Made by a program: the position numbers and the translations under genes. The notes beneath the pieces are model-generated. The model saw only the letters and a list, made by a program, of their open reading frames with translations, searched no databases and was not told the DNA's origin. A stretch of DNA of 64,000 nt from Clostridiaceae bacterium HFYG-1003 (GTDB lineage Bacteria > Bacillota > Clostridia > Clostridiales > Clostridiaceae). The stretch is taken from assembly GCA_024579835.1 (NCBI GenBank), contig CP102060.1, forward strand, positions 1,054,001 through 1,118,000, written 5' to 3'. Within the stretch, counting starts at the first letter, position 1. Each line of letters starts with the position of its first letter. This document shows positions 850 through 18,049 of this stretch, piece by piece.

Positions 850-1896
850 ATGAAAAAGAAGAACGTTTTAAATTTGATTAAATACCACGCAGAAAAAAAT
901 GATGCTGCATTTCGCAATGAAGCTTATGAAATAGCAAAACACTTTGATACCGTAAATGATTATCAGCTCTCCGAGTATATTATTGCATTATTATCGGATG
1001 TGAATACATTCGTTCCGCAAATGGATGAAACGACATCCGGATATTTCAAAAAAGTGAATGTAACCACCGATCCGCTTCCCTTGCCAGATTCCATTAAAGA
1101 CAATGTAGTAGGTATAATCAATGCGGCAGGCCATAATGTTGGCGTTAATAAGTTTCTGTTCGAAGGACCGCCAGGTACAGGCAAGACGGAAACAGCCAAG
1201 CAATTGGCTCGAATCTTGGACCGGGAATTGTTTGCTGTCAATTTCGATACCGTAATTGACAGCAAATTGGGTCAGACTTCCAAGAATATAGCGGCATTGT
1301 TTGATGAGATCAATCGTTTTCCGCACCCCGAGCGCATTCTGATATTACTTGATGAACTGGATGCCATTGCCATTGATCGTATCAATTCCAATGATTTAAG
1401 GGAGATGGGGCGGGCAACTTCGGCTGTTTTAAAAGGCCTGGACGGGCTCAGTGATCAGGTCATGTTAATTGCAACAACGAACTTGTTTCGTTCCTTTGAC
1501 AAAGCGTTAATCAGACGATTTGATTCCGTGATCGATTTCAGTCGATATACCAGGGAAGATTTGGTGGAGATAGGAGAAATTATTCTCAATGATCTATTGG
1601 TTAAGTTCAAAAAAGCCGGCAGGAATATGAGGTTATACCGCAAGATTTTAAATTGCATGGATCCGATCCCTTATCCAGGAGAATTGAAAAATTTGATAAA
1701 AACTAGTTTGGCATTCAGTGATCCAAATAACGAATACGATTATTTGAAGCGATTGTATGCATCGACATTAGGAAAGAACCGTAGTGCTGATTACAAAGAA
1801 ATGCAGAGTAAGGGTTTCACTGTTCGTGAGATCGAATTACTGACCGGAGTATCAAAAAGCCAGGTATCACGGGAGATAAAGGAGTCTAAGGAATGA
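850..1896 (+). CDS. ietA: AAA family ATPase, IetA-type phage defence protein
   Basis: 348-residue AAA+ ATPase. The Walker A motif GPPGTGKT lies at about residues 106-113 and Walker B ILLLDELDA around D168-E169, followed by a sensor-like ATTN. The C-terminus (about 315-348) reads as a small helix-turn-helix segment with SKSQVSREI. It overlaps the next gene, a subtilisin-like protease, by ATGA, so the two are translationally coupled. An AAA ATPase paired with an S8 protease is the architecture of the IetAS anti-phage system; the ATPase is thought to control or feed the protease. The assignment rests on gene order and motifs. Start chosen for its GAGGGG site. AT-rich compared with the genes after 17 kb. 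Confidence 0.85.
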   Translation: MKKKNVLNLIKYHAEKNDAAFRNEAYEIAKHFDTVNDYQLSEYIIALLSDVNTFVPQMDETTSGYFKKVNVTTDPLPLPDSIKDNVVGIINAAGHNVGVNKFLFEGPPGTGKTETAKQLARILDRELFAVNFDTVIDSKLGQTSKNIAALFDEINRFPHPERILILLDELDAIAIDRINSNDLREMGRATSAVLKGLDGLSDQVMLIATTNLFRSFDKALIRRFDSVIDFSRYTREDLVEIGEIILNDLLVKFKKAGRNMRLYRKILNCMDPIPYPGELKNLIKTSLAFSDPNNEYDYLKRLYASTLGKNRSADYKEMQSKGFTVREIELLTGVSKSQVSREIKESKE

Positions 1897-4127
1897 ATAA
1901 TCTCTTGCAGCTTAAAGGACGTTTTGAACAGGCGCCTAATTCATCCCGGCCTGGTTTGCCCAGCCTTCCAAAAAGTCAATCGGTTCAAGTTTCTGAGATG
2001 GAAAAATTAAGAAATGAACTGCAGCATCAGATCAAATTTTGGAGTCAGGAGCGATATATCGACGGAGCATTGGTCAGCGTTTATTACAATAAAGTCGCAG
2101 CTAAAAGCAACCGGATAAAAGGGCTTTTGTCAAAAGGTCAGAATACTGCAAATAGAACGATCGTTGGCGCGCGGTTTACCTTGGATCAGTCACCAAAACA
2201 TATTATTACTCATTATGTGTCACTGGATGTCATTGAAGAATCCATAAAACGGCTGGATGAATGTATTCAGATCGTCAATCAGATTTTTCAGGGATCAATA
2301 AGCCATGAAGATCTGGAAAAAATTAAGTCCGGAGAAATCAAACTGCCGGCTGAAGGAATCAGGAAAACAAATTTCACGTACGTCATTACAGATGTGCATT
2401 ATATTGAAAAATTTGATGTATTCGTTAATGACAATCCAGTTCAGAACAATTCAATCATCACAATTTTTCAGACGGATCATAACGTAAAAACGGTGTTGGA
2501 GAAGATTGGTCTTGATCTATCCTTTGAAAAGGTGATGGACGAAACAACGATCCAGCTCAGGCCGGATGAACTGGCTCTTTTACGGGAAAGAGCCCCTTAC
2601 CTGATATCTATGGCTGTGAGTGATATATCCAGGATGGTGAAGGATGACTTCGAATTCTTGAGGGATAGAAAATTAAGCATACCACCGCCGAATAACGAAC
2701 CAACCATCGGAGTAATTGACACGATGTTCGATGAATCGGTTTATTTCTCTGAGTGGGTATCCTTTGAGAGTTGTGTGGATCCAGCCATTCAAATCGCCAA
2801 CAATGACTTTACTCATGGAACCGCCGTAACTTCGATCATTGTGGATGGTCCGTCCTTTAACCGTGAGTTGGATGATGGCTGCGGCAGATTTCGAGTTCGC
2901 CATTTTGGAGTTGCCACCGGCGGACAATTCAGTTCCTTTTCAATTCTGAGAAATATCAGGGATATTGTCCGTTCAAATACAGATATTAAAGTATGGAATC
3001 TGTCACTAGGTTCCATGCTCGAAATCAATCCGAATTTCATCTCGCCTGAAGCAGCATTCCTTGATAAGCTCCAATTTGACCACAATATCATCTTTGTAAT
3101 TGCCGGAACCAATCAACCTCCCAACTCGGCAGGTCAAGGAATGGCCATTGGCGCACCGGCGGATTCCATAAATTCTCTGGTAGTTAATGCGGTATCCTTT
3201 GATCAACAACCGGCCAGTTACTCCCGAAGCGGACCAGTCCTGTCATTTTTCACGAAACCGGATATAAGCTATTATGGCGGGGATCGCAGGCAGGGAATCA
3301 GGGTTTGTACTCCTGTGGGCGAAGCACAGGTATGCGGTACTTCTTATGCAGCACCATGGATTTCTCGAAAAATGTCCTATCTTATCGATATTTTGGGATT
3401 TAACCGAGAGGTAGCGAAAGCGCTGCTGATCCATTCTGCAACCGGTTGGTCCAGCCAGGAATATGATCCGAATCTGATCGGACACGGAATTGTGCCGATC
3501 AGAATCGAGGAAGTTACTCAAAGTCAGGATGACGAGATTCAGTTCATTTTGGATGGTACCTCAGAAAAATATGATACCTACAATTTCAATATTCCAGTTC
3601 CCGTGAAAAATGAAAAACACCCGTTCATTGCAAAGGCAACCTTGTGTTATTTTCCCTGCTGCTCACGAAATCAGGGCGTAGATTATACGAATACGGAATT
3701 GGATCTGCAATTGGGTCGAATCACCCAGAAAAATTCAAAAACAATATTAAAGCCCATTAATAACAATTACCAGGGGATGGATACGAGTACTTATACCTGG
3801 GAAGAGGATGCGAGAAAACTATATCGTAAATGGGACAATGTGAAGCATATCCGGGAAGTCCAAACATCCAACAATCGTGACAAAAAACGCTATGACAGCG
3901 GTCTCTGGGGGATCAGTCTGAAGACAAAGGAGCGTTTGGAAGATAAATTCGGCGAAGGGATCAAGTTCGGGGTGGTGGTCTCTCTTAAATCAATCGATGG
4001 AGTCAATCGCATCAATGAATTCATAAAGAACTGCTATGCTCGGATGTGGCTGGTGAATTTCATCGAGGTTCAAAATCGAGTTGAGATTTATAATATTGCG
4101 GAACAGGATATTGAATTTCAGGAGTAA
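1893..4127 (+). CDS. ietS: S8 subtilisin-like serine protease, IetS-type
   Basis: 744 residues. A long N-terminal region (about 1-260) without recognised motifs precedes a subtilase domain with the full triad: Asp276 in GVIDT, His308 in THGTAV and Ser484 in CGTSYAAP. No signal peptide is visible, so the protease should be cytoplasmic, as expected for a defence effector rather than a secreted digestive enzyme. The C-terminal about 200 residues form an additional domain with no motif recognised. It starts inside the stop of the ATPase gene (ATGA). The pair matches IetAS; how phage infection triggers it is not visible in sequence. Confidence 0.85.
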   Translation: MNNLLQLKGRFEQAPNSSRPGLPSLPKSQSVQVSEMEKLRNELQHQIKFWSQERYIDGALVSVYYNKVAAKSNRIKGLLSKGQNTANRTIVGARFTLDQSPKHIITHYVSLDVIEESIKRLDECIQIVNQIFQGSISHEDLEKIKSGEIKLPAEGIRKTNFTYVITDVHYIEKFDVFVNDNPVQNNSIITIFQTDHNVKTVLEKIGLDLSFEKVMDETTIQLRPDELALLRERAPYLISMAVSDISRMVKDDFEFLRDRKLSIPPPNNEPTIGVIDTMFDESVYFSEWVSFESCVDPAIQIANNDFTHGTAVTSIIVDGPSFNRELDDGCGRFRVRHFGVATGGQFSSFSILRNIRDIVRSNTDIKVWNLSLGSMLEINPNFISPEAAFLDKLQFDHNIIFVIAGTNQPPNSAGQGMAIGAPADSINSLVVNAVSFDQQPASYSRSGPVLSFFTKPDISYYGGDRRQGIRVCTPVGEAQVCGTSYAAPWISRKMSYLIDILGFNREVAKALLIHSATGWSSQEYDPNLIGHGIVPIRIEEVTQSQDDEIQFILDGTSEKYDTYNFNIPVPVKNEKHPFIAKATLCYFPCCSRNQGVDYTNTELDLQLGRITQKNSKTILKPINNNYQGMDTSTYTWEEDARKLYRKWDNVKHIREVQTSNNRDKKRYDSGLWGISLKTKERLEDKFGEGIKFGVVVSLKSIDGVNRINEFIKNCYARMWLVNFIEVQNRVEIYNIAEQDIEFQE

Positions 4128-5209: not shown

Positions 5210-5917
5210 ATGTCAACAAAAAATATATTGGGAAGTAATATTGGAAAATATAAAGATCTAGAAGTCTTTAACTCAAGAAGAGTTTTCGATGAAGTTCACA
5301 AATGCGGAGTTACTCCGGCAGCGTTTCATAAAAATTTATCCAGGATGGCTGAAGCCGGGGTAGTATATAAGGTATCAAAAGGTCTCTATTGTAAACCAAA
5401 ACAGACACGTTTTGGTTCTCTCAATTCTGATGAAAATCAGATCATCGAGTATTTTCTTGGGAAGAAACAGACCAAAGGTGTTCTGTTAGGATATCGACTT
5501 TACAATCAACTTGGATTAACTACACAATTAGCCAAGTCCATATTGATTTATTCGAATAAGACAGATTATACGCAAAGTAAAGTTCAGCATATTTTAATCA
5601 GAAAGTCCAATCTAACATTTAGCGAACCGGTCAAATCACTGATCCAGCTGCTGGATGTTCTTGAACATCTAAAGGAAATACAGGATATTCAGACGAATCA
5701 GCTGCAGGAGTACATAAAAAGCACGATCGTAAAATACGAAGATAAATACCTCGAAAAAATACTGAAGGATATTTCATTCAAAAAAAGCACATTGGCTGCG
5801 CTGAAAGCCATCTTAGACAATGAGAAGGTCAATCATAATCTTGATCAGTATTTGAGTAAAAATTCCAAGTATAATCTGAAGATATTGGAGGACCTGAATG
5901 TTATTCCACGAAAGTAA
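5210..5917 (+). CDS. AbiEi-like antitoxin (DUF6088 type)
   Basis: 235 residues. The N-terminal half reads as a winged-helix DNA-binding region (FDEVHKCGVTPAAFHKNLSRM followed by GVVYKVSKGLYCKP), the typical start of AbiEi/DUF6088 antitoxins, and the rest is helical. It overlaps the nucleotidyltransferase gene at 5898 by 20 nt, the usual antitoxin-toxin layout of type IV AbiE systems. Such antitoxins repress their own operon and counteract the toxin. ATG 5210 is the first possible start because of an in-frame stop at 5204; the ribosome binding site is weak. Strongly AT-rich. Family call from gene pairing and the N-terminal pattern. Confidence 0.75.
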   Translation: MSTKNILGSNIGKYKDLEVFNSRRVFDEVHKCGVTPAAFHKNLSRMAEAGVVYKVSKGLYCKPKQTRFGSLNSDENQIIEYFLGKKQTKGVLLGYRLYNQLGLTTQLAKSILIYSNKTDYTQSKVQHILIRKSNLTFSEPVKSLIQLLDVLEHLKEIQDIQTNQLQEYIKSTIVKYEDKYLEKILKDISFKKSTLAALKAILDNEKVNHNLDQYLSKNSKYNLKILEDLNVIPRK

Positions 5918-6875
5918 AGAATTTGAAGATCTGATTGGTCTGACGAGTAAATGGCGAAAAATACCTTCTACAGCAATTAGAAAAGATTATTTTATTACTG
6001 AAATACTAAGCAATATTGCTACTTGCGAATACAGGGATTCCTTGGTTTTTAAAGGTGGAACATCTCTGAGTAAATGTTATCCAGGTTCCATTGAAAGATT
6101 TTCTGAAGATATCGACTTGACTTATATTCCTTCGGGAGAGATTAACATTAATGCAATTGAAAAGAATCTAAAAAAAATTGAACAATGTCTAATCGGATCT
6201 GCATTTTCTGAAAAGAATTTTACAGAACGAAACAAACGGAATAAAAGTTGTTATATCTGGTTTACGCTGGAACATAAAGCTATAGAGAGAGTTAAGTTGG
6301 AAATTGGTTCAGAAACCAAACCCCACCCTTTCCAGAAAAAAATCTTCAACTCCTACATTCAAGACTATTTGGAGTCTAATAATCACTCCAATGATGTTAT
6401 GGAGTTTGGTCTGAAAAGCGTGACAATTAATGTGTTGAACATAGAAAGAACCTTTTTAGACAAAGTGATGGCTGTAAAACGTCATGCTTAATCGGATTCC
6501 TTAAGCTTGAAAGCCAGGCATTTATATGATGTAGTAAGGTTGTACTCGATGAAGGAGATTCAAACTTTCTTGAATGATCCGGTCTCACTAAAAGAAATTG
6601 TAATGATTACGAAAGAAAATGATTCGTTTTATTTATTAAAGAGAACGTGTCCCGATGGATATGATCCATGTGGATCGTATGATTTTGAGTCATGGAAACA
6701 TAAATTGGATCGGGATGTGCGATTGAATTATGAAAGTCTCCATAAAAATCTTTTATATTCTGATGAACCACAGGATTGGTTAAAAGTAGAAGCTGTTTTG
6801 TTACTGCTATTGTTCCTTGTCCAGAAGTTGATGGTATTTCTTGTCCGGGAATTGCTGGAAAGAATGGCAAGTTGA
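5898..6875 (+). pseudogene. AbiEii/AbiGii-type nucleotidyltransferase toxin, broken by an in-frame stop and a truncated end
   Basis: The product starts with the nucleotidyltransferase core of AbiEii toxins: FKGGTSLSK at residues 51-59 and FSEDIDL at 68-74. After 197 residues an in-frame TAA (6489-6491) stops it. The same frame then continues with KARHLYDVVRLY, the helix that follows in this family, up to about 6790. The stop therefore splits one gene. The last about 30 residues (VLLLLLFLVQKL..) are unlike the family and coincide with the left end of the transposon at about 6797, so the natural C-terminus was also lost. An AGGAGG-like GGAGGAC site lies just before ATG 5898. The toxin is probably inactive. 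Confidence 0.75.
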
Positions 6876-6896
6876 GAGAAATTGCAACTTGCCATT
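6863..6896 (+). terminator. hairpin at the left end of transposon 1
   Basis: Perfect 12-bp inverted repeat (6863-6874 and 6885-6896) with a 10-nt loop, followed by TTGTTT on the plus strand. It lies just downstream of the ATPase gene stop on the minus strand and could stop transcription in either direction between the AbiE remnant and the transposon. Confidence 0.6.
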
Positions 6897-6900
6897 TTGT

Positions 6901-7701
6901 TTAGCTCAGTTCCCCATTGATGACCAGTTTGACCATGTGGTCGTCAATGATTCGCTTTCCACTTTGGTAACCAAAAATCAGGGTGCTAGTACACACTTGG
7001 TTGACTAGCCTGGCGGATCCACCGGAATATCGATAGATTGCCTCAGTAGCCTCATCTGAGAAGAGCTCATGGTCGATCCCGGCATATTCCAGGTGGCGTT
7101 TCATGTATCCCTTCACCTGTGAGTGGTCCATCAATTGCATTTTGCACTGGATGTCGATCCGTTGCCGGATCGCCGTATAGGACTGCATCTGGAGCTTCTC
7201 CCATAGCTCGACCTGGCCCACCAGTACCAGTGCCATGGGACTGACGGCATCCATCCGGAAGTTGAGGAGAAAACGTACCTCTTCAAGCATTTCTCGATCC
7301 AGCAGATGCGCCTCATCGACAACGACCACCGGACGCTTATTGTGGAGTCCTTTCATCAGCTCGATCTCTTTATGCAGCTGGCGTTTGGCATCCCCTCGAT
7401 AGAATCTTGATTCGGCCCCCAGCTGATCCAGCATCCCTTTGTAGAAATTTCTCGGCGTCATTTTCGAGTCTGCCAGATAGATCAGGGTATATCTGCTGTC
7501 ATCCAGTTGATCGCGGAATCGGCGAATGGTGGTCGTCTTACCAGTGCCGCACTCTCCGGTGAGTACACAGAAGAGTTGCCGTTCGGCGACATAGGATAAT
7601 CTGCTCAGAGACTCCTCCAGCGTATTGGAGGGGAATAGTTCCGTCGTCGGCAGATCCCGACAGAATGGAGTTTTCTTGAAGCCATAAAACTCTTCAAACA
7701 T
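6901..7701 (-). CDS. ExeA/TniB-like AAA ATPase of transposon 1
   Basis: 266 residues from ATG 7701. Walker A GECGTGKTTT near the N-terminus and Walker B VVVVDEAHLL mark the ExeA/TnsC/TniB type of transposition ATPase, which helps the integrase select and hold target DNA. The start MFEEFYGFKKTPF is the usual family beginning. ATG 7701 is chosen over an upstream in-frame GTG (7710) because AAGGGGGTGG lies at good distance. Its start overlaps the integrase stop by 8 nt, so the two are co-translated. It is intact, unlike its homologue in transposon 2. Confidence 0.85.
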   Translation of the reverse strand: MFEEFYGFKKTPFCRDLPTTELFPSNTLEESLSRLSYVAERQLFCVLTGECGTGKTTTIRRFRDQLDDSRYTLIYLADSKMTPRNFYKGMLDQLGAESRFYRGDAKRQLHKEIELMKGLHNKRPVVVVDEAHLLDREMLEEVRFLLNFRMDAVSPMALVLVGQVELWEKLQMQSYTAIRQRIDIQCKMQLMDHSQVKGYMKRHLEYAGIDHELFSDEATEAIYRYSGGSARLVNQVCTSTLIFGYQSGKRIIDDHMVKLVINGELS

Positions 7702-9049
7702 CACTGCCACCCCCTTTTCTTATGTCTTTGAAAGAGATGGCCGTAGACTGCTGTTTGTCTTTTCGCTTCTGATTCTGCTTTTGGGCACCATCGAGTAACC
7801 GGGAAGAGGTTGGCTTGACTGGAGTCAGGAACTCCGGCAGCTGAGGCTTGGGCGCCACCCGCTCCCCAATGACCAGCTTTCTCACCACAAAGGGTTTGTC
7901 ATCCTGATACTCAATGCTCAATTCCTCGGTGTTACTGGGGTCATAGACCACTTCCACGCTGCGAGCCACATAGGGTAGCCCAACTTCATACTTCGCGCCG
8001 CCAAAGCTGATGCAGCCACTCTTATCGACTTTTCTGGTCTCAGCGTGCAAAAAGGCGTTGGCGACCTTCTCCGCTGGCAGATATTTCAAGGGCCTGGGAT
8101 CCAGATTATACGCCTGATGCGGGGTCGTTCCATTGAGTGCGGTATGCGGTTTGTTCTGGTAGCATTCTTCCAACCAGATCCAGAACCGCTCATTCATAAC
8201 CTCGAGGGATCGTTCCGAGTTATCGAATTTATACTCATCGAGAAACCGATCGATATTCTGATTGAATTTTTCTATTTTTCCGGTGCCTTCCGGAGAGTAG
8301 GGCTTTGCGAAGATCAGCCGGATGCCAAGCTTTGCGCAGGCTCTGGACATCCACTTATTTTTAAACTGGCGGCCGTTATCGAAGTATGCCTGCTCTGGAA
8401 TTCCCCACTTGAGGATGGCTTTGCGGAAGCAATCCTCAACGATGCTCTGCTCCAGGTTCGAGTAGAACTGGGCATGGAGGATCATCCGGGTAGCGTCGTC
8501 CAAAAACGCCACCAGATAGACCTGCTGCGGCTTGTTTCCAGGACCGATCGGCAGGTAACAGCCATACTTGATATCCGAATGCCACAGTTTGTTGCGGGTG
8601 CGTTTTTGAAATCGGCGGGTAGCTACCCCGCCAGCGGCATAGATGGCCATATGCTTCCCGCTGTAGCCCTTCTCCTGCAATTTCTCCTGCAGGCTGCTTC
8701 GCTTGATCGAGCCAGCTTCGGTGAGGCCTTCCCATTCCATGATTCGAATGATCTCAGCCACACTTCTGGACGGGATCTCTTTGCGCAGCCGCACGGCTTC
8801 GTCCAACACCAGCGCCGGGATGGCTCTTGAATCCTGCGATACCCTCGCCTGCGGTATCAGTCCGGAAAATCCCTTCTGCTGATAACTATTCAGATATCGC
8901 CGTAAGGTCCGCTCGGAAATCCCAGCCTCGCGGCAGATCTGCTCCTTAAGCACCCGGATCTGCCCCTTGTCCAAGTCATGGGAAAGAAGGGGCGCCAGTA
9001 GAATCGCCCGTTGCGTCGCTATTTCCTGTGCTTTTTCCTTGTCCTTCAT
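7694..9049 (-). CDS. DDE integrase/transposase of transposon 1
   Basis: 451 residues. N-terminal helix-turn-helix region (GISERTLRRYLNSYQQKGFSG), then an rve/Mu-type catalytic core with LWHSDIKYG, AYFDNGRQF and GTGKIEKFN supplying the D, D and E residues, and a C-terminal beta-rich Mu-type domain. The frame is open to 9109, but ATG 9049 is chosen because GGAGG at 9056-9060 (minus strand) sits 6 nt before it and the homologue at 15983 begins at the same place. It cuts and joins the transposon ends together with the ATPase gene it overlaps. Confidence 0.88.
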   Translation of the reverse strand: MKDKEKAQEIATQRAILLAPLLSHDLDKGQIRVLKEQICREAGISERTLRRYLNSYQQKGFSGLIPQARVSQDSRAIPALVLDEAVRLRKEIPSRSVAEIIRIMEWEGLTEAGSIKRSSLQEKLQEKGYSGKHMAIYAAGGVATRRFQKRTRNKLWHSDIKYGCYLPIGPGNKPQQVYLVAFLDDATRMILHAQFYSNLEQSIVEDCFRKAILKWGIPEQAYFDNGRQFKNKWMSRACAKLGIRLIFAKPYSPEGTGKIEKFNQNIDRFLDEYKFDNSERSLEVMNERFWIWLEECYQNKPHTALNGTTPHQAYNLDPRPLKYLPAEKVANAFLHAETRKVDKSGCISFGGAKYEVGLPYVARSVEVVYDPSNTEELSIEYQDDKPFVVRKLVIGERVAPKPQLPEFLTPVKPTSSRLLDGAQKQNQKRKDKQQSTAISFKDIRKGGGSDV

Positions 9050-9109
9050 GTCATGCCTCCATTCAATTTCGAGTGATGACATGATTTTAGAGGACTCCTC
9101 GGTGGACAC

Positions 9110-9589
9110 CTATGCCAACTGGGTATGTGGCCATCGGTGATTGTTGACTAAAATCCGGACAACCTTTTTCAGCCAGCCCGCAGGCTCGCCTACAAAGAAG
9201 AAAATCCTCTCGAGTATGGACTGAGGCAGATCGGAAAAGTCGACCCCATAGTCCTGAGTGACTGTAGCATATGTACTGAGCAGAGCACCGACTAAAGCGT
9301 GGGCTCTGGAGTTGAACCAGGCTCGGACCCGCCGAATGGTCGAATTCTCAACGGGCACCGCTTCATGTTGACCGGTGATGATCTGCTCCAGGATCGTTGT
9401 GGTCTGCCGCTTATAGGGAGTTAAGAGATCCGGAAGTTCGTGATGGATCTTCCCGCAACCGGGGTTGGTACAGCGCAGGCGACGAAGCACCAGGATCATG
9501 ACATCCCCATTCTCGTTGATCACTAATCTCCTGCGGGAGCCAATGACCTTAAGCGACTGATGACAGATGGGACATATGCTTTTCTCCAT
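9110..9589 (-). CDS. DUF6431 zinc-finger protein of transposon 1 (5' end probably frameshifted)
   Basis: The frame gives about 159 residues from ATG 9589 with a CPIC...C..PGC zinc-ribbon pattern (CPICHQ and RCTNPGC) and the conserved HHELPDLLTPYKRQ stretch. DUF6431 proteins accompany this type of integrase and ATPase and are plausibly a DNA-binding partner. The homologue at 16015-16539 has a longer N-terminus beginning MVSITQF. A matching MISISKY start is present here at 9653 but in another frame; deleting one A from the AAAA run at about 9579-9582 would join them. So either a frameshift occurred or the internal start is used. Confidence 0.7.
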   Translation of the reverse strand: MEKSICPICHQSLKVIGSRRRLVINENGDVMILVLRRLRCTNPGCGKIHHELPDLLTPYKRQTTTILEQIITGQHEAVPVENSTIRRVRAWFNSRAHALVGALLSTYATVTQDYGVDFSDLPQSILERIFFFVGEPAGWLKKVVRILVNNHRWPHTQLA

Positions 9590-9670
9590 ACTCCGAACAA
9601 AAAACACGCTGATCGGGATTCCATTCTAAAACGTATTTTGATATACTGATCATGCTAATAACTTAGTAAG

Positions 9671-9716
9671 GATCCTCCCTGATGACTCGGCGCTAACCAT
9701 AGAGTCAGGGAGGATC
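9671..9716 (+). terminator. hairpin at the right end of transposon 1
   Basis: Perfect 12-bp inverted repeat (9671-9682 and 9705-9716) followed by TCTTTTT on the plus strand. On the minus strand it lies in the leader just before the DUF6431 start at 9653. Transposon 2 has a hairpin at the same place. Confidence 0.65.
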
Positions 9717-9892
9717 TCTTTTTGTCCTCCACAATATTATTAGGGACATTATATCCGTCTATTTACGGACAGACAAGGCTGGCTACTAGGGGGTGCGGAT
9801 AGTATGAGTCTGAATAGATTTGCCTGGAAATAAATGTCCTTTCGTATATGATTAGGCGATTGTGGGAGATAGGTGATCTTATTGACTTGCTA

Positions 9893-10996
9893 ATTAAACC
9901 TTGCGATTCTTGATGATTTTTGATATAATAATCGTATGAATAATGATTTAAAAACCCAAGCAGTACGGCTTAGTCCGGAAGAACAATATCAGATTCGCAA
10001 GAACATCATCCGACTATCAGAAAAAGGTAAAACGAATGAGGAAATAGCAGAAATCTTAGATGTAAGCTTGCGGCACGTCCAGAACACTAAGAAACAATAC
10101 AAGGAAGGCGGGATCGCAGGGATCAAGCCCCAAAAGCGTGGTCGCCGAGAGGGTGCGAAACGAACCCTTACTCCTGCCCAGGAAAAGGAAATACAGCAAA
10201 TCCTGGTTGATAAGACACCGGATCAATTGAAGTTCAAAGACTGCATGTGGAGCAGAAAAACCATTGCAGAGCTCATTTATGAAAAGTATAAAATCAGCCT
10301 GCCCGTATCTACTTTAGGGGTCTACTTGGCGCGGTGGGGATTCTCAGTCCAGCGGCCGATGAAACGCGCCTACAAGCAAGACACAGAGAAGGTGCAGCAT
10401 TGGGTCGAAACTGAGTTTCCTGGCATTACTGAACGAGCAGAGGCTGAGAATGCAGAGATTTTCTTTGGAGATGAAACCGGATTGCAAAATCAGTCAACTT
10501 GCTTGCGTGGGTATGCGCCAATCGGTCAAACGCCCGTGGTTCGAACCGAAGCAAAACATATCAAGATCAACATGCTTTCAGCAATTTCCAATCGAGGAAA
10601 ATTGCGCTTTGTCCTCTATAAAGACAACATGAATGCCGACAAACTGATTGATTTTATGCGGCGGTTGGTGCATGACAGCAAAAAGAAAGTGTTCCTGGTG
10701 CTCGATAATCTGCGGGTTCATCATGCTAAAAAAGTCATGGCGTGGGTAGAAAAGCATAAGGAAGAAATTGAGCTATTCTACCTGCCACCGTATGCCCCAG
10801 AATACAATCCCGATGAATTGCTCAACAGTGATCTCAAACGTGGCATAAGTAAAAAACCAAGTCCCAGGAGCGATGATGAGCTTGAACATAATGTTCGATC
10901 TCATTTAAAAACTGTGCAATTGCGTCCTAATAAAACCAGGGGGTTCTTCCATTCAAAAACTACAAAATATGCCTCTTAATATGCGCAAGGTTTAAT
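9893..10996 (+). mobile_element. IS630-family insertion sequence
   Basis: One transposase gene flanked by a 13-bp perfect inverted repeat, ATTAAACCTTGCG at 9893-9905 and its complement at 10984-10996. IS630 elements duplicate TA; TA precedes the left repeat but CA follows the right one, so one flank may have changed. It lies between transposon 1 and the helicase gene. Confidence 0.8.
9936..10979 (+). CDS. IS630-family transposase
   Basis: 347 residues, intact. N-terminal helix-turn-helix (TNEEIAEILDVSLRHVQNTKK) followed by a DDE core: FFGDETG, VLDNLRVHHA and the PYAPEYNPDE motif give the D, D and E residues typical of IS630/Tc1-mariner enzymes. Full length for the family and enclosed by matching inverted repeats, so the element may still be active. 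The ribosome binding site before ATG 9936 is weak, as is common for transposases. Confidence 0.9.
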   Translation: MNNDLKTQAVRLSPEEQYQIRKNIIRLSEKGKTNEEIAEILDVSLRHVQNTKKQYKEGGIAGIKPQKRGRREGAKRTLTPAQEKEIQQILVDKTPDQLKFKDCMWSRKTIAELIYEKYKISLPVSTLGVYLARWGFSVQRPMKRAYKQDTEKVQHWVETEFPGITERAEAENAEIFFGDETGLQNQSTCLRGYAPIGQTPVVRTEAKHIKINMLSAISNRGKLRFVLYKDNMNADKLIDFMRRLVHDSKKKVFLVLDNLRVHHAKKVMAWVEKHKEEIELFYLPPYAPEYNPDELLNSDLKRGISKKPSPRSDDELEHNVRSHLKTVQLRPNKTRGFFHSKTTKYAS

Positions 10997-11049
10997 CAGG
11001 GGAGCAATAACAAAGTACTAGGCAAAAAAATATAGGAGGGAAATATGAA

Positions 11050-13557
11050 ATGAACTTACTTAACAAATTAAGTAATACTACAAAAAAAAGTATTATTGAG
11101 CCACGTGAAATTTTCATGTCATTACCACAAAAAAATAAGGCTTATGAATATCCAAGAGATGTTCAAACAGAAGTATGGAAAAATTGGTTTGAGAGAAGAA
11201 ATCAAAAGAACAACATAATTAAGATGAATACAGGTAGTGGTAAAACATTAGTTGGATTACTAATTTTACAAAGTTGTCTAAATGAAGGCAAAGGTCCTGC
11301 GGTATATGTAGTTCCTGATACTTTTTTAGTAAATCAAGTGTGTGAAGAAGCTAGGAAAATAGGGATCTCAGTTACTTTGAATAGAGACGATTATTTATAT
11401 CAAGATAACCAAGCTATTTTAATCATGAACGTACATGCCTTGGTTAATGGAAAGAGTGTGTTCGGAATGAATCCCAATAGTAATTATCCACTTGGAAGCG
11501 TTTTGATAGATGATGTTCACGCTTGTATAGATACTATAAATTCTCAATTTTCATTAAAATTACCTTGTGGGCACGAAGTATACAATAGAATACTTCGTAT
11601 TTTTGAAGAGAATCTAAAAGCCTATGATAACAAGGCATATCATGATATTGTAAAAATGCGTGACCCTATTAAAAATACATTGGTACCATTTTGGTTTTGG
11701 CAACAAAATTTTGATAAAGTCTATGAAGTACTATCGGAATATAAGACATCAGACGAATTGAATAAACAGATATATTTCAATTTACCTCTTGTGGAGGATA
11801 GTTTAGAGACGTGCAACTGTATAATTACGGCTAACTACATAGAAATAGTACCAAGCGGGATTAATATATCGAAAATTAAAGAGTTTGAAAAGGCGGAAAG
11901 AAGAATCTTCATGAGCGCAACTCTTTCAGATGATAGTGTTTTTATTTCTACATTTGGATTTAATGAAAATGAGTTTGATCAAATAATTACTCCTGAAAAT
12001 GCAAATGATATTGGTGATCGTTTAATTTTATTTCCAAAGCATTTAAATAGTCGAATAAGTAATGATGATATCAAAGAAAAAATAATAGAACTTTCAAAAA
12101 AATATAATGTTGCTGTAATTGTTCCATCCAAAGAAAGAGCTAAGTATTGGGACATCTCGGGAGACCGTGTTGCAAAATCTGATAATATAGCTGAATTAAC
12201 TTTAAAACTTAAAACTCAAGAACATACAGGGTTAATAGTTTTTGTTAATAGATATGATGGTATAGATTTACCAGACGATGCTTGTAGAATTATCGTCATA
12301 GATTCACTTCCGCCGTTTCGGAGTGATTACGAGAAATACGTTTATAGTATTGATAACTCTAGCAAAAATCTCTTAAGAGAAAGAATCCAAAAAATTGAAC
12401 AAGGAATGGGACGTGGGGTTAGATCAAATAGTGATTCATGTTGTGTAGTATTAATGGGAGATGATTTGACTGATGCTTTGATAAGAAGCAAAGGCTATAA
12501 ATTATTTAGCAAAGCAACTCTTGAACAATATTGTCTTTCGAAAGAATTATGGGATTTGTTAAAAAATGAATATTCGAATCCATCAGTAAGTACTATTTTT
12601 GAATTGGCGGATTATTCACTTAATCGAGATGTGGAATGGATTAAGAAAAGTAGGGATCGCCTTTCTGATATTAAATACTCTTCTAAACCAAATTTTGACA
12701 AAGTAATATCTGGTCAGAGAAAAGCTTTTGAATTTGCAACATCAAAACAATGGTTAAAAGCATTAAATGTGATCGATGAAATAATAAACTCTGACATTGA
12801 AAATAGTACGAAAGGCTATCTATTTCAAGTCAAAGCTTCTTACATGAATTTCATTGACCGAAGTAAAGCACAAGAGATCTTGCTGGCTGGTCATCAATAT
12901 AATAATTCAATCCTCAATCCAATTGCAGGTATTCAGTATAATAAATCTATAAATCATCAAAACCAAGCTGTAAGTGTGAATTGTTATATATTAAAGAATG
13001 ATTTAAATCAAAATGATTATATAATTAAAACGGATTTCATTCTGATGAATTTGGTGTTTAATGCTAATACAGAATGTTTTGAAAGCTCTCTGCAAAGTCT
13101 AGGCGATTTATTAGGATTTTCATCGACAAGACCGGATAAAGAAACAAACGGTGCAGGGCCTGATAACCTCTGGGCTTTGGGTGAGAGTAATTACTTATTG
13201 ATAGAATGCAAAAGTGGAGCGGTCTCTACTACCATTAGTAAAGAATATTGCAATCAATTGGGTGGTTCCGTAAGATGGTTTAAAAAGGTATACGGAAAAG
13301 ATATGTTCAATACTCCAATTATGGTTCATAAATCAGCAGTAATTGAAAAGAAAGCAACTATGGTTAATACCATGAGAATTATAACAATTGAGCAACTTGA
13401 AAAGTTAAAAAATCAAGTAAGCATGTTTGTAAATGCTTTAATTCAAGCTGATAATTGGAAAAACACCGAGAAAATATCTATACTTCTTAAAATGTATAAA
13501 TTAAGGGGACAAGATATAATTCAAAATTATACGGAAAATCCAAAGCAACAACAGTAA
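11050..13557 (+). CDS. SF2 DEAD/DEAH helicase with C-terminal PD-(D/E)XK-like nuclease motif
   Basis: 835 residues. Helicase motifs: NTGSGKT (Walker A, about 60-66), IDDVH (153-157, a DExH variant), MSATL, and QGMGRGVR at about 451-458 (motif VI). The C-terminal helicase half resembles the Rad3/XPD/DinG kind (RYDGIDLPDDACR). Near the end GPD705, then IE719CK721, matches the D...ExK signature of restriction-type nucleases. It starts at ATG 11050, 9 nt after AGGAGGG. Very AT-rich compared with the rest of the window, flanked by an IS630 element and a transposon, and near IetAS and AbiE: probably a single-gene anti-phage helicase-nuclease, comparable in layout to Hna-type proteins. That role is inferred. 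Confidence 0.75.
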   Translation: MNLLNKLSNTTKKSIIEPREIFMSLPQKNKAYEYPRDVQTEVWKNWFERRNQKNNIIKMNTGSGKTLVGLLILQSCLNEGKGPAVYVVPDTFLVNQVCEEARKIGISVTLNRDDYLYQDNQAILIMNVHALVNGKSVFGMNPNSNYPLGSVLIDDVHACIDTINSQFSLKLPCGHEVYNRILRIFEENLKAYDNKAYHDIVKMRDPIKNTLVPFWFWQQNFDKVYEVLSEYKTSDELNKQIYFNLPLVEDSLETCNCIITANYIEIVPSGINISKIKEFEKAERRIFMSATLSDDSVFISTFGFNENEFDQIITPENANDIGDRLILFPKHLNSRISNDDIKEKIIELSKKYNVAVIVPSKERAKYWDISGDRVAKSDNIAELTLKLKTQEHTGLIVFVNRYDGIDLPDDACRIIVIDSLPPFRSDYEKYVYSIDNSSKNLLRERIQKIEQGMGRGVRSNSDSCCVVLMGDDLTDALIRSKGYKLFSKATLEQYCLSKELWDLLKNEYSNPSVSTIFELADYSLNRDVEWIKKSRDRLSDIKYSSKPNFDKVISGQRKAFEFATSKQWLKALNVIDEIINSDIENSTKGYLFQVKASYMNFIDRSKAQEILLAGHQYNNSILNPIAGIQYNKSINHQNQAVSVNCYILKNDLNQNDYIIKTDFILMNLVFNANTECFESSLQSLGDLLGFSSTRPDKETNGAGPDNLWALGESNYLLIECKSGAVSTTISKEYCNQLGGSVRWFKKVYGKDMFNTPIMVHKSAVIEKKATMVNTMRIITIEQLEKLKNQVSMFVNALIQADNWKNTEKISILLKMYKLRGQDIIQNYTENPKQQQ

Positions 13558-13754
13558 CATTATCGAAACTTTTGTATCATCAGGTTTGATTCTGTGTGTC
13601 ATATAAAAGTTTTACTAAGAATGGTCGAATTTAAAATTAATTAAGAAGCGGTTGCTTCTGCCGGCCCATTTTGTGATCCATTTGACTTACCATATTGTTC
13701 CAGAATTGCCGGTTAGGCTGTCCTGGTGTTCTCTCCATCAGGCCCACCGATTAT

Positions 13755-13827
13755 ATAGGGACCCCGCTTCGAGACGTCAAGATACCTCTTCATGGTATCT
13801 CTCTTGACGGCTCGGCGGGGTCCCTAT
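13755..13827. terminator. long bidirectional hairpin downstream of transposon 2 ATPase
   Basis: Outer arms 13755-13767 and 13815-13827 pair perfectly over 13 bp. Inner arms 75-82/802-809 and 81-86/794-799 (add 13700 and 13000 respectively) also pair, giving a long stem with one bulge. It lies between the helicase gene and the transposon 2 ATPase gene, which face each other, and could stop both transcripts. T tracts are short. Confidence 0.6.
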
Positions 13828-13850
13828 CTATAATGAGTAGCCCGATGAGA

Positions 13851-14649
13851 TCACATCTCCTCCTTGCCAATGAGCTCAATGCAGCGCTCATCCAGAATTT
13901 TCTTGTTTTGCTGGCTTCCGTAGATCAAGGCGTGAGTGCACAGCTTGTTGATTTCTCGGGGACTTCCGTGGGTGTATTTATGAATCTGGCTGATCGCCTC
14001 ATCCGAGAAGATATCTGACTTTGATTTTGCATAGCGCAGCTGGTGGAGGATATATTCTTTGGTCTGAGACGCATCCATATATCTGGTCTCACACTGGATA
14101 TTCACCCTTTGGCTGATGGCCAGAGAGCTTTGCTTTTTTTAAAGTAGTTTTCAGCTCGGGCTGACCGGCCAGGATCAGGCTCATCGGACTGTGCGAGTCT
14201 ACATTCGCATTCAGCATGAATCTTAGCTCCTGCAGCATTTCTCCCCCCAATAGATGGGCCTCATCTACGATGATCACTGGTGTGACATGCTGCAGGGCTG
14301 CCAGGACCTCCAGTTCGCGCTGCAAGATTCGTTTGCTGTCCCCACGGTAGAATTTCCCTTCTACCCCAAGCTGGCTTAGGATCCCATTGTAGAAGCGCCT
14401 TGGCGAGAGCGAGGAATCCGCAATGTACATGCACCGGTAGCCCCGTCCATCAAGGGTTTCCTTCAACGAGCGGATGATGGTGGATTTTCCGCTGCCACAC
14501 TCCCCGGTCAACACCGCAAACCAGCGCATCTTCGCAGCGTAGACCAGCCGGGAGAGCACCTCTTCCTGGCCCGCAACGCAGTACAAGTGTTCAACGGGGA
14601 TATCCCTCGAGAAGGGAGTCTGTTCGAACTCGTAGAACTGCTCAAACAT
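13851..14649 (-). pseudogene. ExeA/TniB-like ATPase of transposon 2, frameshifted
   Basis: Homologue of the ATPase at 6901-7701: same MFEQFYEFEQTPFSRD start, Walker A GECGSGKST and Walker B IIVDEAHLL. The first frame ends at 14089 after GQPELKTTLKK, and the rest of the protein (SQRVNIQCETRYMD onward) is in the next frame down to 13851. The break is at a run of seven T (14134-14140; A7 on the coding strand); six bases would restore one frame. Programmed slippage at the A run cannot be excluded, but the needed shift is +1, not the more usual -1. Overlaps the integrase stop. Confidence 0.8.
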
Positions 14650-15983
14650 CACACACCCTCATTCTTTTTCATCAGATCACGATAACTTGTCGCTCCTTCA
14701 CGGGGCAGCTCAACCTGGTTATTTTCCATCGCCTTCAGCATTCTGGAACGAGGTGCTTCCACCAGAGGATCTGGCTTGACCCGTACCTTGACAAATTCAC
14801 TGACTACCAATGGACGGATGACACGAGGCTCAATGCTGTCATGGTACATCACCAGTTCATCCGGATTCCCCACACGATAGGCCACTTGGACCTTAAAGCC
14901 GATGACATCAACTCCAGCTTCCCATTTTCTCGAGTGGTAAGAGATGCAGCCGGTCTTGTCGACCAGTCGAGTCTCGGTCAGCGTGAATGCCAGATTAAGC
15001 TCTTCCTGACTCACAAACCTTTGCCGCTTCAGGTCACCCTGATAGGCTTGCTTGGGACTCATCCCGATGCTGGAATGGATTTTCTCGTGGTAGTAGCTCT
15101 CCAGCCACAGATCTAACATATGCTGGACTTCTTCCACGGTCTGGGGGTGTTCCAGTTTCATCTCGAGGACAAATTTATCCAAAAGCTTATTAAAAGCCTC
15201 CACCTTGCCTTTGCTGGATGGACTGTAGGCCTTTGCTCGAACCAGCTTGACGCCAAGCTTTACGCTGGCCTGGTTGATCTGTCTGCCTACAAATTGTGAT
15301 CCGTTATCTGTATAGATTCCAGCTGGAACCCCAAACCGTTCAACCGCCCGGCGATAACAGCTCATCACACGATCCGCGGTTTGATCCTCATACACTCCGA
15401 TCCCTGTGACGTACCTTGTCGCATCATCGATGAACACCACCACATACAGTTGCGTGGCTTTGCGCGTGGCCGTCTTGGGCAGAACCAATAGGTACTTCAG
15501 ATCAGTTTGCCATAAATCATTGCGATGCTTTCGCTGAAACCTTCGCATAGCGCCTGCAGAGCCCTGTGCGCCCGTATTGAACGCCTTGAGCTGATGGGTG
15601 GCATAACCTCGGCGAGACAGGTGGTCCTGCAGGGTCGAGCGCTTGAGTGCACCTTTGGCAACCTTGCCCTCCAGTTCCAGGATGCGGATGATATCCTGAA
15701 CGCTCCGATTAGGCGCTTCCCGGCGAAGCATCACCGCTTCATCCAGGATCGACTCGGTCACTGATCCCGTCTTGTTGGAGGGTTTCGTGGCTGGGACTAA
15801 TCCATTAAAGCCTTGCTCTTCATAGGCTTTAAGCCATCGGCGGATCGTTCGTGGGGACAACCCCTCATCCTGGGCGATGGCTTCGATTTTCAGGGTGCGC
15901 AAAGCGGGGTCCATCGCTGGACCCATCAATGGGTTTAGGATTTGCGCCCGTTCATAGGCCGTTTCTTCTCTGGTTTTCTTCAT
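14649..15983 (-). CDS. DDE integrase/transposase of transposon 2
   Basis: 444 residues, intact and homologous to the integrase at 7694-9049. It has an N-terminal helix-turn-helix (GLSPRTIRRWLKAYEEQGFNG), catalytic motifs LWQTDLKYL, IYTDNGSQF and SSKGKVEAFN for D, D and E, and a C-terminal Mu-type domain. An AAGGAG site precedes ATG 15983. It overlaps the ATPase start in ATGA fashion. Transposition would need the ATPase, whose gene is frameshifted. Confidence 0.88.
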   Translation of the reverse strand: MKKTREETAYERAQILNPLMGPAMDPALRTLKIEAIAQDEGLSPRTIRRWLKAYEEQGFNGLVPATKPSNKTGSVTESILDEAVMLRREAPNRSVQDIIRILELEGKVAKGALKRSTLQDHLSRRGYATHQLKAFNTGAQGSAGAMRRFQRKHRNDLWQTDLKYLLVLPKTATRKATQLYVVVFIDDATRYVTGIGVYEDQTADRVMSCYRRAVERFGVPAGIYTDNGSQFVGRQINQASVKLGVKLVRAKAYSPSSKGKVEAFNKLLDKFVLEMKLEHPQTVEEVQHMLDLWLESYYHEKIHSSIGMSPKQAYQGDLKRQRFVSQEELNLAFTLTETRLVDKTGCISYHSRKWEAGVDVIGFKVQVAYRVGNPDELVMYHDSIEPRVIRPLVVSEFVKVRVKPDPLVEAPRSRMLKAMENNQVELPREGATSYRDLMKKNEGV

Positions 15984-16014
15984 AGTCAGATCACTTCTCC
16001 TTGAAAATTCAATG

Positions 16015-16539
16015 TCAAGGAGAGTGTAATCGAATCTGGCTACTTGGCCTATTCCATATCAGGTGGAACGGCCAAAGCCTGTGGTTGACGAGTGTGCTGA
16101 CCAAATCGAAGAGCGGTAGATCAAGGAGCCTGCTGTCGATCTGTTCGCGATGGACCAATGCGGAAAGAGCATTTTTCAGATATGTCTGCCAGATCCTCCA
16201 CCACCTTTTCCATCGATCGGGAGTCCGCGGATCCTTGACGATCGCAACGGGCTTCCCGCCAACAGCTCGCTCAATAACTGATCTAAAACACCGTTGTCTG
16301 GGGAGAAGGAAGTCTGGCAACTCCAGATGGATCTTGACGCAATCGATGCATCGAAGCCGACGAAGCAAGAAGTAATAGAACGATTCTTCATCGATTCGCA
16401 CAGAGCGTTTTCTGCTATCGTAGTGATAGAGCCGGCCGGCGCAGATCGGACAGGGGATCGTTTCGATTCCCAATATCACACAGTATCTGATACCATCTAT
16501 GGTCTTGAACTGTCTTAAAAATTGAGTTATACTAACCAT
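16015..16539 (-). CDS. DUF6431 zinc-finger protein of transposon 2
   Basis: 174 residues from ATG 16539 (a GTG at 16551 is also in frame). CPIC near residue 33 and a later RCIDC give a zinc-ribbon pattern; LRRLRC and HLELPDFLLPRQR match the homologue in transposon 1. Likely DNA-binding partner of the transposition proteins. The hairpin at 16557-16599 lies just upstream, in the leader of this gene. The N-terminal 30 residues, absent from the open frame of the transposon 1 homologue, suggest that copy is the damaged one. Confidence 0.75.
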   Translation of the reverse strand: MVSITQFLRQFKTIDGIRYCVILGIETIPCPICAGRLYHYDSRKRSVRIDEESFYYFLLRRLRCIDCVKIHLELPDFLLPRQRCFRSVIERAVGGKPVAIVKDPRTPDRWKRWWRIWQTYLKNALSALVHREQIDSRLLDLPLFDLVSTLVNHRLWPFHLIWNRPSSQIRLHSP

Positions 16540-16556
16540 GCTGAAAAGCACCCAAT

Positions 16557-16599
16557 GAGAATCCCGGGAGTGGTCGTCAAACTAGCACCCGGGGTTCTC
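16557..16599 (+). terminator. hairpin at the right end of transposon 2
   Basis: Arms 16557-16568 and 16588-16599 pair over 12 positions with one G-T pair, followed by seven T (16603-16609) on the plus strand. A typical Rho-independent terminator in the plus direction; on the minus strand it is a leader hairpin 18 nt before the DUF6431 start. Confidence 0.75.
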
Positions 16600-16645
16600 G
16601 CCTTTTTTTGATTTTATCTATGACAATTCTATCCGGCAAATGCGG

Positions 16646-16943
16646 TTGTGACAACCCGGTAGCTTTCCGACATTTTGATCCGGCCTATACAGCGGTGCTC
16701 GAATACGGCACCGTTTCTTTCAGTACGGCATATAGTTATCAAAATATTTTTAAGCATACTCTGTGTGCGGTATGTGAACGCGTGATAAATTATAACAATA
16801 CATAACTTTATCTTGTGAAAGGGAGTTATGCTTGTGGACAGTAGACGAAAGGATGGTTTTTCATCGGCATATCAGCAATAATGGTAAAAGAGAAACAGAA
16901 AATGACGGTATTTTATTAGTTTGAAAATGTTACCGCTTTCTTA
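16646..16943. other. intergenic region between transposon 2 and the nucleoside locus
   Basis: No gene supported. It carries further CCGGC/GACA-type boxes up to about 16690 that probably belong to the transposon end. A 65-codon open frame at 16608-16805 starts inside the terminator T run and is rejected. Confidence 0.5.
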
Positions 16944-16973
16944 TTGACAACGGGAAAGACGGTAAATTAATAT
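16944..16973 (+). promoter_or_regulatory. promoter of the LacI-type regulator and nucleoside operon
   Basis: TTGACA (16944-16949) with TAATAT at 16968-16973 (18-bp spacer). It precedes two palindromic operator candidates and the AAGGAGGTGG ribosome binding site at 17004-17013 of the regulator gene. Confidence 0.6.
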
Positions 16974-16977
16974 GATG

Positions 16978-17002
16978 GTAACGGTTTACTTAATCGATTA
17001 AG
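16978..17002 (+). promoter_or_regulatory. operator candidates for the LacI-family regulator
   Basis: Two adjoining palindromes just after the promoter: GTAACGGTTTAC (16978-16989, GTAA/TTAC half-sites) and the perfect 14-bp CTTAATCGATTAAG (16989-17002). The second has the central CG step common in LacI-family operators. Their position downstream of the -10 box fits repression by road-block and autoregulation. Confidence 0.55.
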
Positions 17003-17023
17003 GAAGGAGGTGGAGCGGACAGC

Positions 17024-18049
17024 ATGTCAGTCACATTGAAAGACATCGCACAGATCGCCGGCGTATCGACGGCAACGGTTTCCAAAGTGATCAGCGGAAA
17101 GCATCAGGACATCGGGGAAAAGACCATCGAAAAAATTCGCAAGATTGCCCGGGAACTGGACTATCGGCCCAATTCACTGGCCCGGAGCATGAAGACCAAG
17201 GTCACGCGGACCATTGGCCTCATCATTCCGGATGTACGAAACCCCTTCTTTACGGATCTGGCCCGGGGGGCAGAGGACAGTGCCCATGAACGGGGCTACA
17301 GTCTGCTGTTTTGCAACTCGGACGACGATCTCAAAAAAGAGATGGAATACATTGACACCCTGACCCAGAAACAGGTGGACGGCATCGCCTTGGCGGCCTC
17401 CGTCAAGCGCAACCGGAAGCTGGAAGAAGGCTTCCGAATCTCCGTGCCCATTGTCACGCTGGACCGTGATGTTTATTTCCCCGGCGTGCGGGGCCACATT
17501 CACTCGGACAACGAATCCGGTGCCTACGACGCGGTGAAGTACCTGATCAGCCTGGGCCACCGCCGCATCCTGTTCCTGTCGGGCGACCTCACCATCCGCG
17601 TCTCCAAAGAACGTCTGGAAGGCTATCGCCGGGCGCTGACCGAAGCCGGCATTGAATACGATGAGAACCTGCTCCTGGGCGGCCCCTTCAGCTTTGAATA
17701 CGGCTATGAAGCCATGCGCACCTGGGAGATGGATCCCGAAGTCACCGCCATCTTCTGCGGCAATGATCTCATTGCCCTGGGCGCCATCAAGGCGCTGAAG
17801 GAGCGCCGGATCAAAGTCCCGCAGGACATCAGCGTCATGGGCTTTGACGACATCTACCTGGCCAGCATCAATACCCCCGGCCTGACGACCATCCGCCAGC
17901 CCAGCTATGAACTGGGTTATGCCACCGTCCGCCGCCTCATCGATGTCATCGAAGGCGTGGACCACAGTGACTCCACCATGGTGATCAAACTCGAACTGAT
18001 CCCCAGGGAAAGCACCGCCAAGCCAAAGAAGAAAGCAGCCCTCGGCTGA
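17024..18049 (+). CDS. LacI-family transcriptional regulator of nucleoside use
   Basis: 341 residues. N-terminal LacI helix-turn-helix (TLKDIAQIAGVSTATVSKVI, residues 4-23) and hinge, then a periplasmic-binding-protein-like sensor domain with IGLIIPDVRNPFF and FDDIYLASINTPGLTTI. Full length. Preceded by AAGGAGGTGG. First gene of a run including two nucleoside hydrolases, a BMP-type ABC transporter and a sugar kinase, so its effector is probably ribose, a nucleoside or a related sugar. It likely represses the cluster and itself through the palindromes just upstream. Confidence 0.88.
   Translation: MSVTLKDIAQIAGVSTATVSKVISGKHQDIGEKTIEKIRKIARELDYRPNSLARSMKTKVTRTIGLIIPDVRNPFFTDLARGAEDSAHERGYSLLFCNSDDDLKKEMEYIDTLTQKQVDGIALAASVKRNRKLEEGFRISVPIVTLDRDVYFPGVRGHIHSDNESGAYDAVKYLISLGHRRILFLSGDLTIRVSKERLEGYRRALTEAGIEYDENLLLGGPFSFEYGYEAMRTWEMDPEVTAIFCGNDLIALGAIKALKERRIKVPQDISVMGFDDIYLASINTPGLTTIRQPSYELGYATVRRLIDVIEGVDHSDSTMVIKLELIPRESTAKPKKKAALG

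Follow-up and report, generated by a model that had tools for sequence, protein, structure and literature searches.

The closest described system to the gene analyzed here is Hna of S. meliloti, whose gene is carried on pSymA and is equated with sma2245 in a passage of PMC12445080. S. meliloti Hna has been reported to degrade ssDNA as a 3'-5' exonuclease, with no unwinding detected, and to lack an Fe-S cluster (PMC13381803). The ATP-bound dimer keeps the nuclease off, a phage single-strand-binding protein (SSB) breaks the dimer and releases the nuclease, and the outcome is DNA loss and abortive infection (PMC13381803). The autoinhibition was mapped to a loop of HEL1 by the triple mutant T30A/D31A/P34A; a passage of the same paper terms this dimer loop highly conserved, and its authors expect diversity among Hna orthologues (PMC13381803). 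The residues mutated in the published work include Q39 and R36 of the ATP site and P712/D713/E727/K729 of the nuclease, and the deposit statement gives 10UJ as the Hna monomer and 9YKJ as the Hna dimer (PMC13381803). Hachiman (HamAB), Gabija and Nhi share the logic of a helicase plus a nuclease, and Hachiman and Nhi are likewise stimulated by phage SSB (PMC13381803). However, these three are separate families from that of the protein described below. The names Ham, Gabija and Nhi were absent from its 13 PADLOC matches at E values up to 0.05, and the HamA nuclease of Hachiman is a separate gene, whereas here the nuclease is part of the same chain.

The window is the whole stretch of 64,000 nucleotides that was analyzed, from Clostridiaceae bacterium HFYG-1003 (contig CP102060.1, positions 1,054,001 to 1,118,000). 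It contains an hna homologue at 11050-13557 on the forward strand, an intact ORF of 835 residues with an ATG start, which lies exactly where the initial annotation had placed it. A Shine-Dalgarno-like AGGAGG that resembles a ribosome-binding site (11034-11039, forward strand) stands 10 nt before the ATG. The product has two SF2 helicase domains of the XPD/DinG-like type followed by a C-terminal PD-(D/E)XK nuclease. The gene had been described as AT-rich, and its G+C content is 0.311 versus 0.548 for positions 17001-64000 of the window; six of its nearest relatives range from 0.322 to 0.374. We regard this gene as an intact member of the Hna family (for helicase-nuclease abortive infection) that most likely works like S. 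meliloti Hna, a reading to which we assign a probability of about 0.88.

The initial annotation had proposed a candidate single-gene helicase-nuclease defense protein with an Hna-like layout, and an assignment to the Hna type is now backed by profile, sequence and fold searches. First, the profile search against defense families that the annotation had recommended matched PDC-S28, a candidate label of PADLOC-DB, over the full length of the protein with no difference seen (967 bits, E 1.8e-291, residues 4-832). Hna of pSymA (locus L033) itself matches the PDC-S28 model PDLC04986 over its full length at 1019.7 bits. Thus, Hna falls under PDC-S28, and the S. meliloti protein and the PADLOC candidate belong under one model. 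The earlier statement that no standard family name could be given does not stand, as PDC-S28 matches at 1.8e-291 and the PDB contains Hna itself. A 2025 paper already counts PDC-S28 among the PADLOC candidates coinciding with a DefenseFinder system, in passages on PDC-S28 that do not name Hna (PMC11811056). Secondly, a phmmer search of the PDB returned a single strong match (E 7.9e-105, residues 5-775), to the sequence of 10uj, 9yhn and 9ykj. The N-terminus of the pSymA homologue is that of this PDB sequence when compared by eye, and 9yhn is named "Hna Monomer" in the Foldseek list. BLASTP aligned the window protein with S. meliloti Hna at 30% identity over 793 columns; an identity of only 30% to the tested protein is one of the points that count against the assignment.

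Third, the predicted fold agrees with Hna. An AlphaFold2 model built from 60 sequences had a mean pLDDT of 90.8 and a pTM of 0.74. A model built from the single sequence was discarded (pLDDT 31.1). The Hna monomer and dimer were the top solved matches of the model in Foldseek (E 2.2e-59, 1.6e-40 and 3.5e-25). VIA-align gave Z 30.1 against chain B of the Hna dimer (9ykj), with an rmsd of 2.7 over 511 residues, and Z 45.7 against the Hna monomer over 799 residues. In the latter alignment the rmsd over the whole chain was 14.6, which weighs against the Hna reading; a nuclease domain placed differently may explain this value. DinG came next after Hna at Z 18.3, with Hna (9yhn/9ykj) well ahead of DinG and XPD. 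Most rows of the VIA-align list span part of residues 14-565 alone, so the lack of other nuclease folds in that list is uninformative. The initial annotation had called for a structure prediction of the C-terminus and had named the lack of a PD-(D/E)XK fold as counter-evidence. The model places a PD-(D/E)XK-like core in this part, at residues 674-759 (13069-13326, forward strand), consisting of a helix at 674-687, strands at 691-693, 706-711 and 714-720, a helix at 731-748 and a strand at 753-759.

Lastly, the residues expected of the helicase and nuclease sites are retained. The alignment used for this comparison contained 107 relatives, a sample weighted towards the window gene because most of them came from the best 80 of at least 550 confirmed. 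It places Walker A (NTGSGKT) at residues 60-66 (11227-11247), motif II (DDVH) at residues 154-157 (11509-11520) and motif VI (QGMGRGVR) at residues 451-458 (12400-12423), all on the forward strand. K65, D154, D155, G404, D406, Q451, R458, D705, E719 and K721 are invariant in the 107 aligned relatives, and T66 (106/107), R455 (106/107), H157 (105/107) and P704 (104/107) are nearly so. The ATP-site residue Q39 occurs in all 107 and R36 in 96. The C-terminal GPD...IECK motif of the initial annotation corresponds to residues 703-721, GPDNLWALGESNYLLIECK, and contains D705/E719/K721, the residues aligned to D713/E727/K729 in S. meliloti Hna. The catalytic PD...E-C-K stretch at residues 704-721 (13159-13212, forward strand) thus presents P704, D705, E719 and K721 as the equivalents of P712/D713/E727/K729. 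The catalytic parts are strongly constrained throughout this sample. In XPD and DinG, the cysteines of the Fe-S cluster sit between Walker A and motif II. The window protein has only Cys76 and Cys98 in that interval, and therefore has no four-cysteine Fe-S motif there.

Taken with S. meliloti Hna, the homology is full-length, the predicted fold is the same and the catalytic residues are kept. The two proteins are alike in length (835 versus 845 aa), in HEL1-HEL2-NUC order, in the P-D-E-K nuclease residues, in Q39/R36 of the ATP site and in having no Fe-S cysteine cluster, and the gene in the window is likewise solitary. They differ in the 30% identity noted above, in the T30/D31/P34 loop, which is replaced and one residue longer in the window protein, and in clade.

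Domain databases alone give a less specific picture. Pfam found ResIII (4.8e-12) and DEAD (1.5e-11) in the N-part helicase and Helicase_C_2 (1.9e-07), which bears out the XPD/DinG-like helicase motifs described earlier, and at E values up to 0.05 it found no match past residue 476. NCBIfam returned only generic helicase and unrelated matches, all under its cut-offs. The generic Pfam domains, the position of DinG and XPD as the next folds behind Hna and the published likening of S. meliloti Hna to ExoDinG (PMC13381803) would all suit a housekeeping DinG/XPD-like repair helicase-exonuclease with no defense role. However, the protein scores 967 bits as Hna (PDC-S28) versus 58 for the best DinG model. 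DinG/ExoDinG, XPD and CasDinG share its SF2 helicase architecture, with VIA alignments covering about residues 11-546 of the model, but these alignments end ahead of the nuclease domain and the similarity is far lower. The four-cysteine Fe-S cluster of DinG and XPD is missing as well, and the best similarity is to Hna.

The distribution of the family also argues against a housekeeping role. With the PDC-S28 profile, matches below 1e-100 were confined to 5 of the 146 genomes searched from the same bacterial family, the present genome among them, and neither of the two sampled genus-mates had one. Matches at E 0.001 (134 of the 146 family genomes and 8 of 14 controls) were not accepted as Hna, since the best E value was 5e-11 or worse in every one of the 146 except 5; these weak matches look like short stretches resembling generic helicase parts. 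At 1e-60, S. meliloti Hna as the query matched 6 of the 398 phylum genomes searched, this one included, a frequency in line with the published figure of roughly 2% of genomes (PMC13381803). Among 72,556 plasmid records, tblastn found matches in 239, and in 187 of these a single place covered 80% or more of the query. In the phage collection (50,697 records) it matched one, a Salmonella contig of 501 kb. Two IMG/VR contigs classed as viral (L157 and L158) carry a full-length Hna that is 64% identical to S. meliloti Hna, so the family may also travel on prophages.

Neighboring genes were clustered for 73 of 80 loci (810 neighbor ORFs, plus 20 from the window), considering gene order only. No cluster extended to more than nine loci, and each cluster of seven to nine loci was confined to Legionella, in related loci. 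The widest clusters outside Legionella covered six loci (an apparent type I methyltransferase) and then five (an apparent recombinase), and the fact that no neighbor is common to more than six non-Legionella loci again weighs against housekeeping, which we consider very improbable. The initial annotation had described a gene standing alone and had named constant housekeeping contexts of its homologues as counter-evidence; judged by gene order, no neighbor appears to be constant across the 73 loci. The context of Hna is that of a mobile solitary defense gene and not of a housekeeping gene. PADLOC and Pfam searches of 140 neighbor ORFs identified type I restriction genes (N6_Mtase 5, Methylase_S 4) along with four phage integrases and three LmuB models, counts that weigh little because no control set stands alongside them.

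The surroundings of hna in the window are mobile as well. The initial annotation had the gene enclosed by mobile elements, and there are indeed two insertion elements on its left and a degraded transposon on its right; the nearest ORFs on either side match transposon families. Directly upstream lies an IS630-type element (9879-11010, forward strand) with 27-nt terminal inverted repeats that are 78% complementary; its right end lies 39 bp upstream of the start codon of hna, and five other long copies occur in this genome. Further left is a 2.9-kb IS (6880-9799, reverse strand) encoding a DUF6431 protein, an IS481-like transposase and an AAA ATPase of the TIGR03015 type; its left edge may precede 6880 and its right end is at about 9799. 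This genome holds eight other copies, and the 2.9-kb IS has been recently active, because seven of these are near full length at 99-100% identity. To the right of hna is a related transposon remnant (13851-16551, reverse strand) with DUF6431, transposase and frameshifted ATPase genes. It occurs in this genome as a single long copy and is a decayed cousin of the left-hand 2.9-kb IS. Hna as the cargo of a flanking transposon was considered; inverted repeats were scanned for in 6600-11200 and 13400-17100, each region within itself. The IS630 element, the 2.9-kb IS and the remnant are context and not part of the defense gene.

The adjoining defense genes mentioned in the initial annotation are also present. 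PADLOC identified a pair of an IetA-like AAA ATPase (9.1e-41) and an IetS-like subtilase (6.3e-62) at 850-4127, with a G+C content of 0.419. An AbiEi-like ORF, which is whole, and an AbiEii-like gene in split frame (5898-6491 and 6507-6875) occupy 5210-6875. The AbiE pair looks broken because an in-frame stop splits AbiEii. A bare gene within such a defense-rich area is not equal to a phage test, and this too limits the Hna reading.

The position of the IS630 element raises the question of expression. Its right end at 11010, complete with terminal repeats, could mean that the insertion severed the promoter of a once-functional Hna that is now silent, and a consensus scan for one promoter type found no sigma-70-like site on the forward strand from 10800 to the hna start codon. 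For these two reasons hna may be weakly expressed. However, the ORF is intact including its catalytic residues, the ribosome-binding stretch is still there, the IS630 transposase points towards hna and could supply transcription, and the scan was limited to that one promoter type, so we consider a silenced gene unlikely.

The main departure from S. meliloti Hna, and another point against a simple Hna reading, concerns the dimer loop. The HEL1 loop and Q-motif region of the window protein (residues 25-39; 11122-11166, forward strand) aligns by phmmer with that of S. meliloti Hna, with a loop one residue longer; R36 and Q39 are kept, whereas T30/D31/P34 are replaced by N29/K30/Y34. Among the 107 aligned sequences, P34 occurs in all 20 of the S. 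meliloti type and in none of the 87 others, where the residue is Y in 72, R in 9, F in 4, L in 1 and D in 1. The counts among these 87 are not population frequencies, because most entered the alignment for their closeness to the window protein, from the best 80 of at least 550. The tree groups the 20 sequences with a GPLR loop, S. meliloti Hna included, in a single clade (support 1.0) that contains nothing else; the window protein falls outside this clade. As the subgroup is named by its loop, the result lies in the mapping of loop to clade without exceptions. The GPLR loop is also seen in the Hna encoded by an IncX1 plasmid of E. coli (L156). The founding Hna study (Cell Host Microbe 2023) is said to include a protective E. 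coli homologue. The T30/D31/P34 dimer loop is a feature of the S. meliloti-type subgroup and not of the Hna family. A divergent relative (L007, genome G078; PDC-S28 9.4e-109) keeps the helicase and nuclease residues that were checked and lacks Y34/P35/R36, and is perhaps a third Hna branch.

These loop differences raise the possibility of an Hna-family exonuclease with a different switch, that is, with another dimer interface or none and possibly with a trigger other than SSB. Such a switch would refine the main reading and does not exclude it. The distribution of P34 (20/20 versus 0/87) and the well-supported clade that leaves out the window protein point in this direction, as does the published ascription of autoinhibition to these loop residues, with diversity expected among orthologues (PMC13381803). 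On the other hand, R36 (76/87) and Q39 (87/87) are largely kept outside the clade and the loop there is mostly conserved as YPRDVQ, in sequences drawn mostly from the best 80 of at least 550; the protein may thus still dimerize at this site through altered contacts. In addition, T30 and D31 are loose within the GPLR clade itself (T in 3/20 and S in 14/20; D in 8/20). We therefore regard a different switch as a serious possibility that falls somewhat short of even odds.

The genome also carries a member of the other branch. A second Hna on the same chromosome (G000:C1:199858-202374; L002:1462-3996) is of the GPLR type and is 32% identical to the first. It lies directly downstream of an LmuB-like gene of Lamassu (L002:54-1403; PDLC00254 8.7e-140, from model position 115), and about 1.8 kb beyond it the 2.9-kb IS occurs again. 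The two Hna branches thus coexist in one genome, and both genes lie close to a copy of that element. The Hna of the Lactococcus lactis plasmid pMRC01 (L039:6013-8547) is 65% identical to this second Hna. A 1997 paper, to judge from its title in a reference entry of PMC6458302, calls pMRC01 phage resistance-encoding, and the Hna may explain this phenotype of the plasmid. The literature searched contained no paper naming pMRC01 together with Hna.

Returning to the preferred reading, an intact Hna-family protein, its working can be proposed from the S. meliloti model. A phage product, the phage SSB in the known case, would release the nuclease; DNA would then be degraded, and the cell would die with no phage let out. 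The effector step, ssDNA degradation, very likely carries over, because the nuclease and ATP sites are kept. We are less sure that the regulatory switch carries over, because the dimer contacts differ. Since the dimer loop of S. meliloti Hna is replaced, restraint in this branch would probably involve different contacts at the same, mostly conserved YPRDVQ loop, or another interface. A more specific proposal is that the window protein represents a large Hna branch without the S. meliloti dimer contacts, in which both the check on the nuclease and the sensing of phage act through the interface marked by YPRDVQ; we put this forward tentatively, as more doubtful than probable. The literature searched contained no experimental work on members of this branch, and we infer its defense function by analogy with the S. 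meliloti protein.

In sum, the window protein belongs to a known family and is unremarkable within it, apart from one difference at the level of a sub-branch. A candidate without a name is now tied to a family that has a solved structure and worked-out enzymology. The published autoinhibition model may not hold family-wide, given that 87 of the 107 aligned sequences in this weighted sample lack its dimer loop. If the reading with a separate interface is true, the two Hna types in this genome may answer different phage products.
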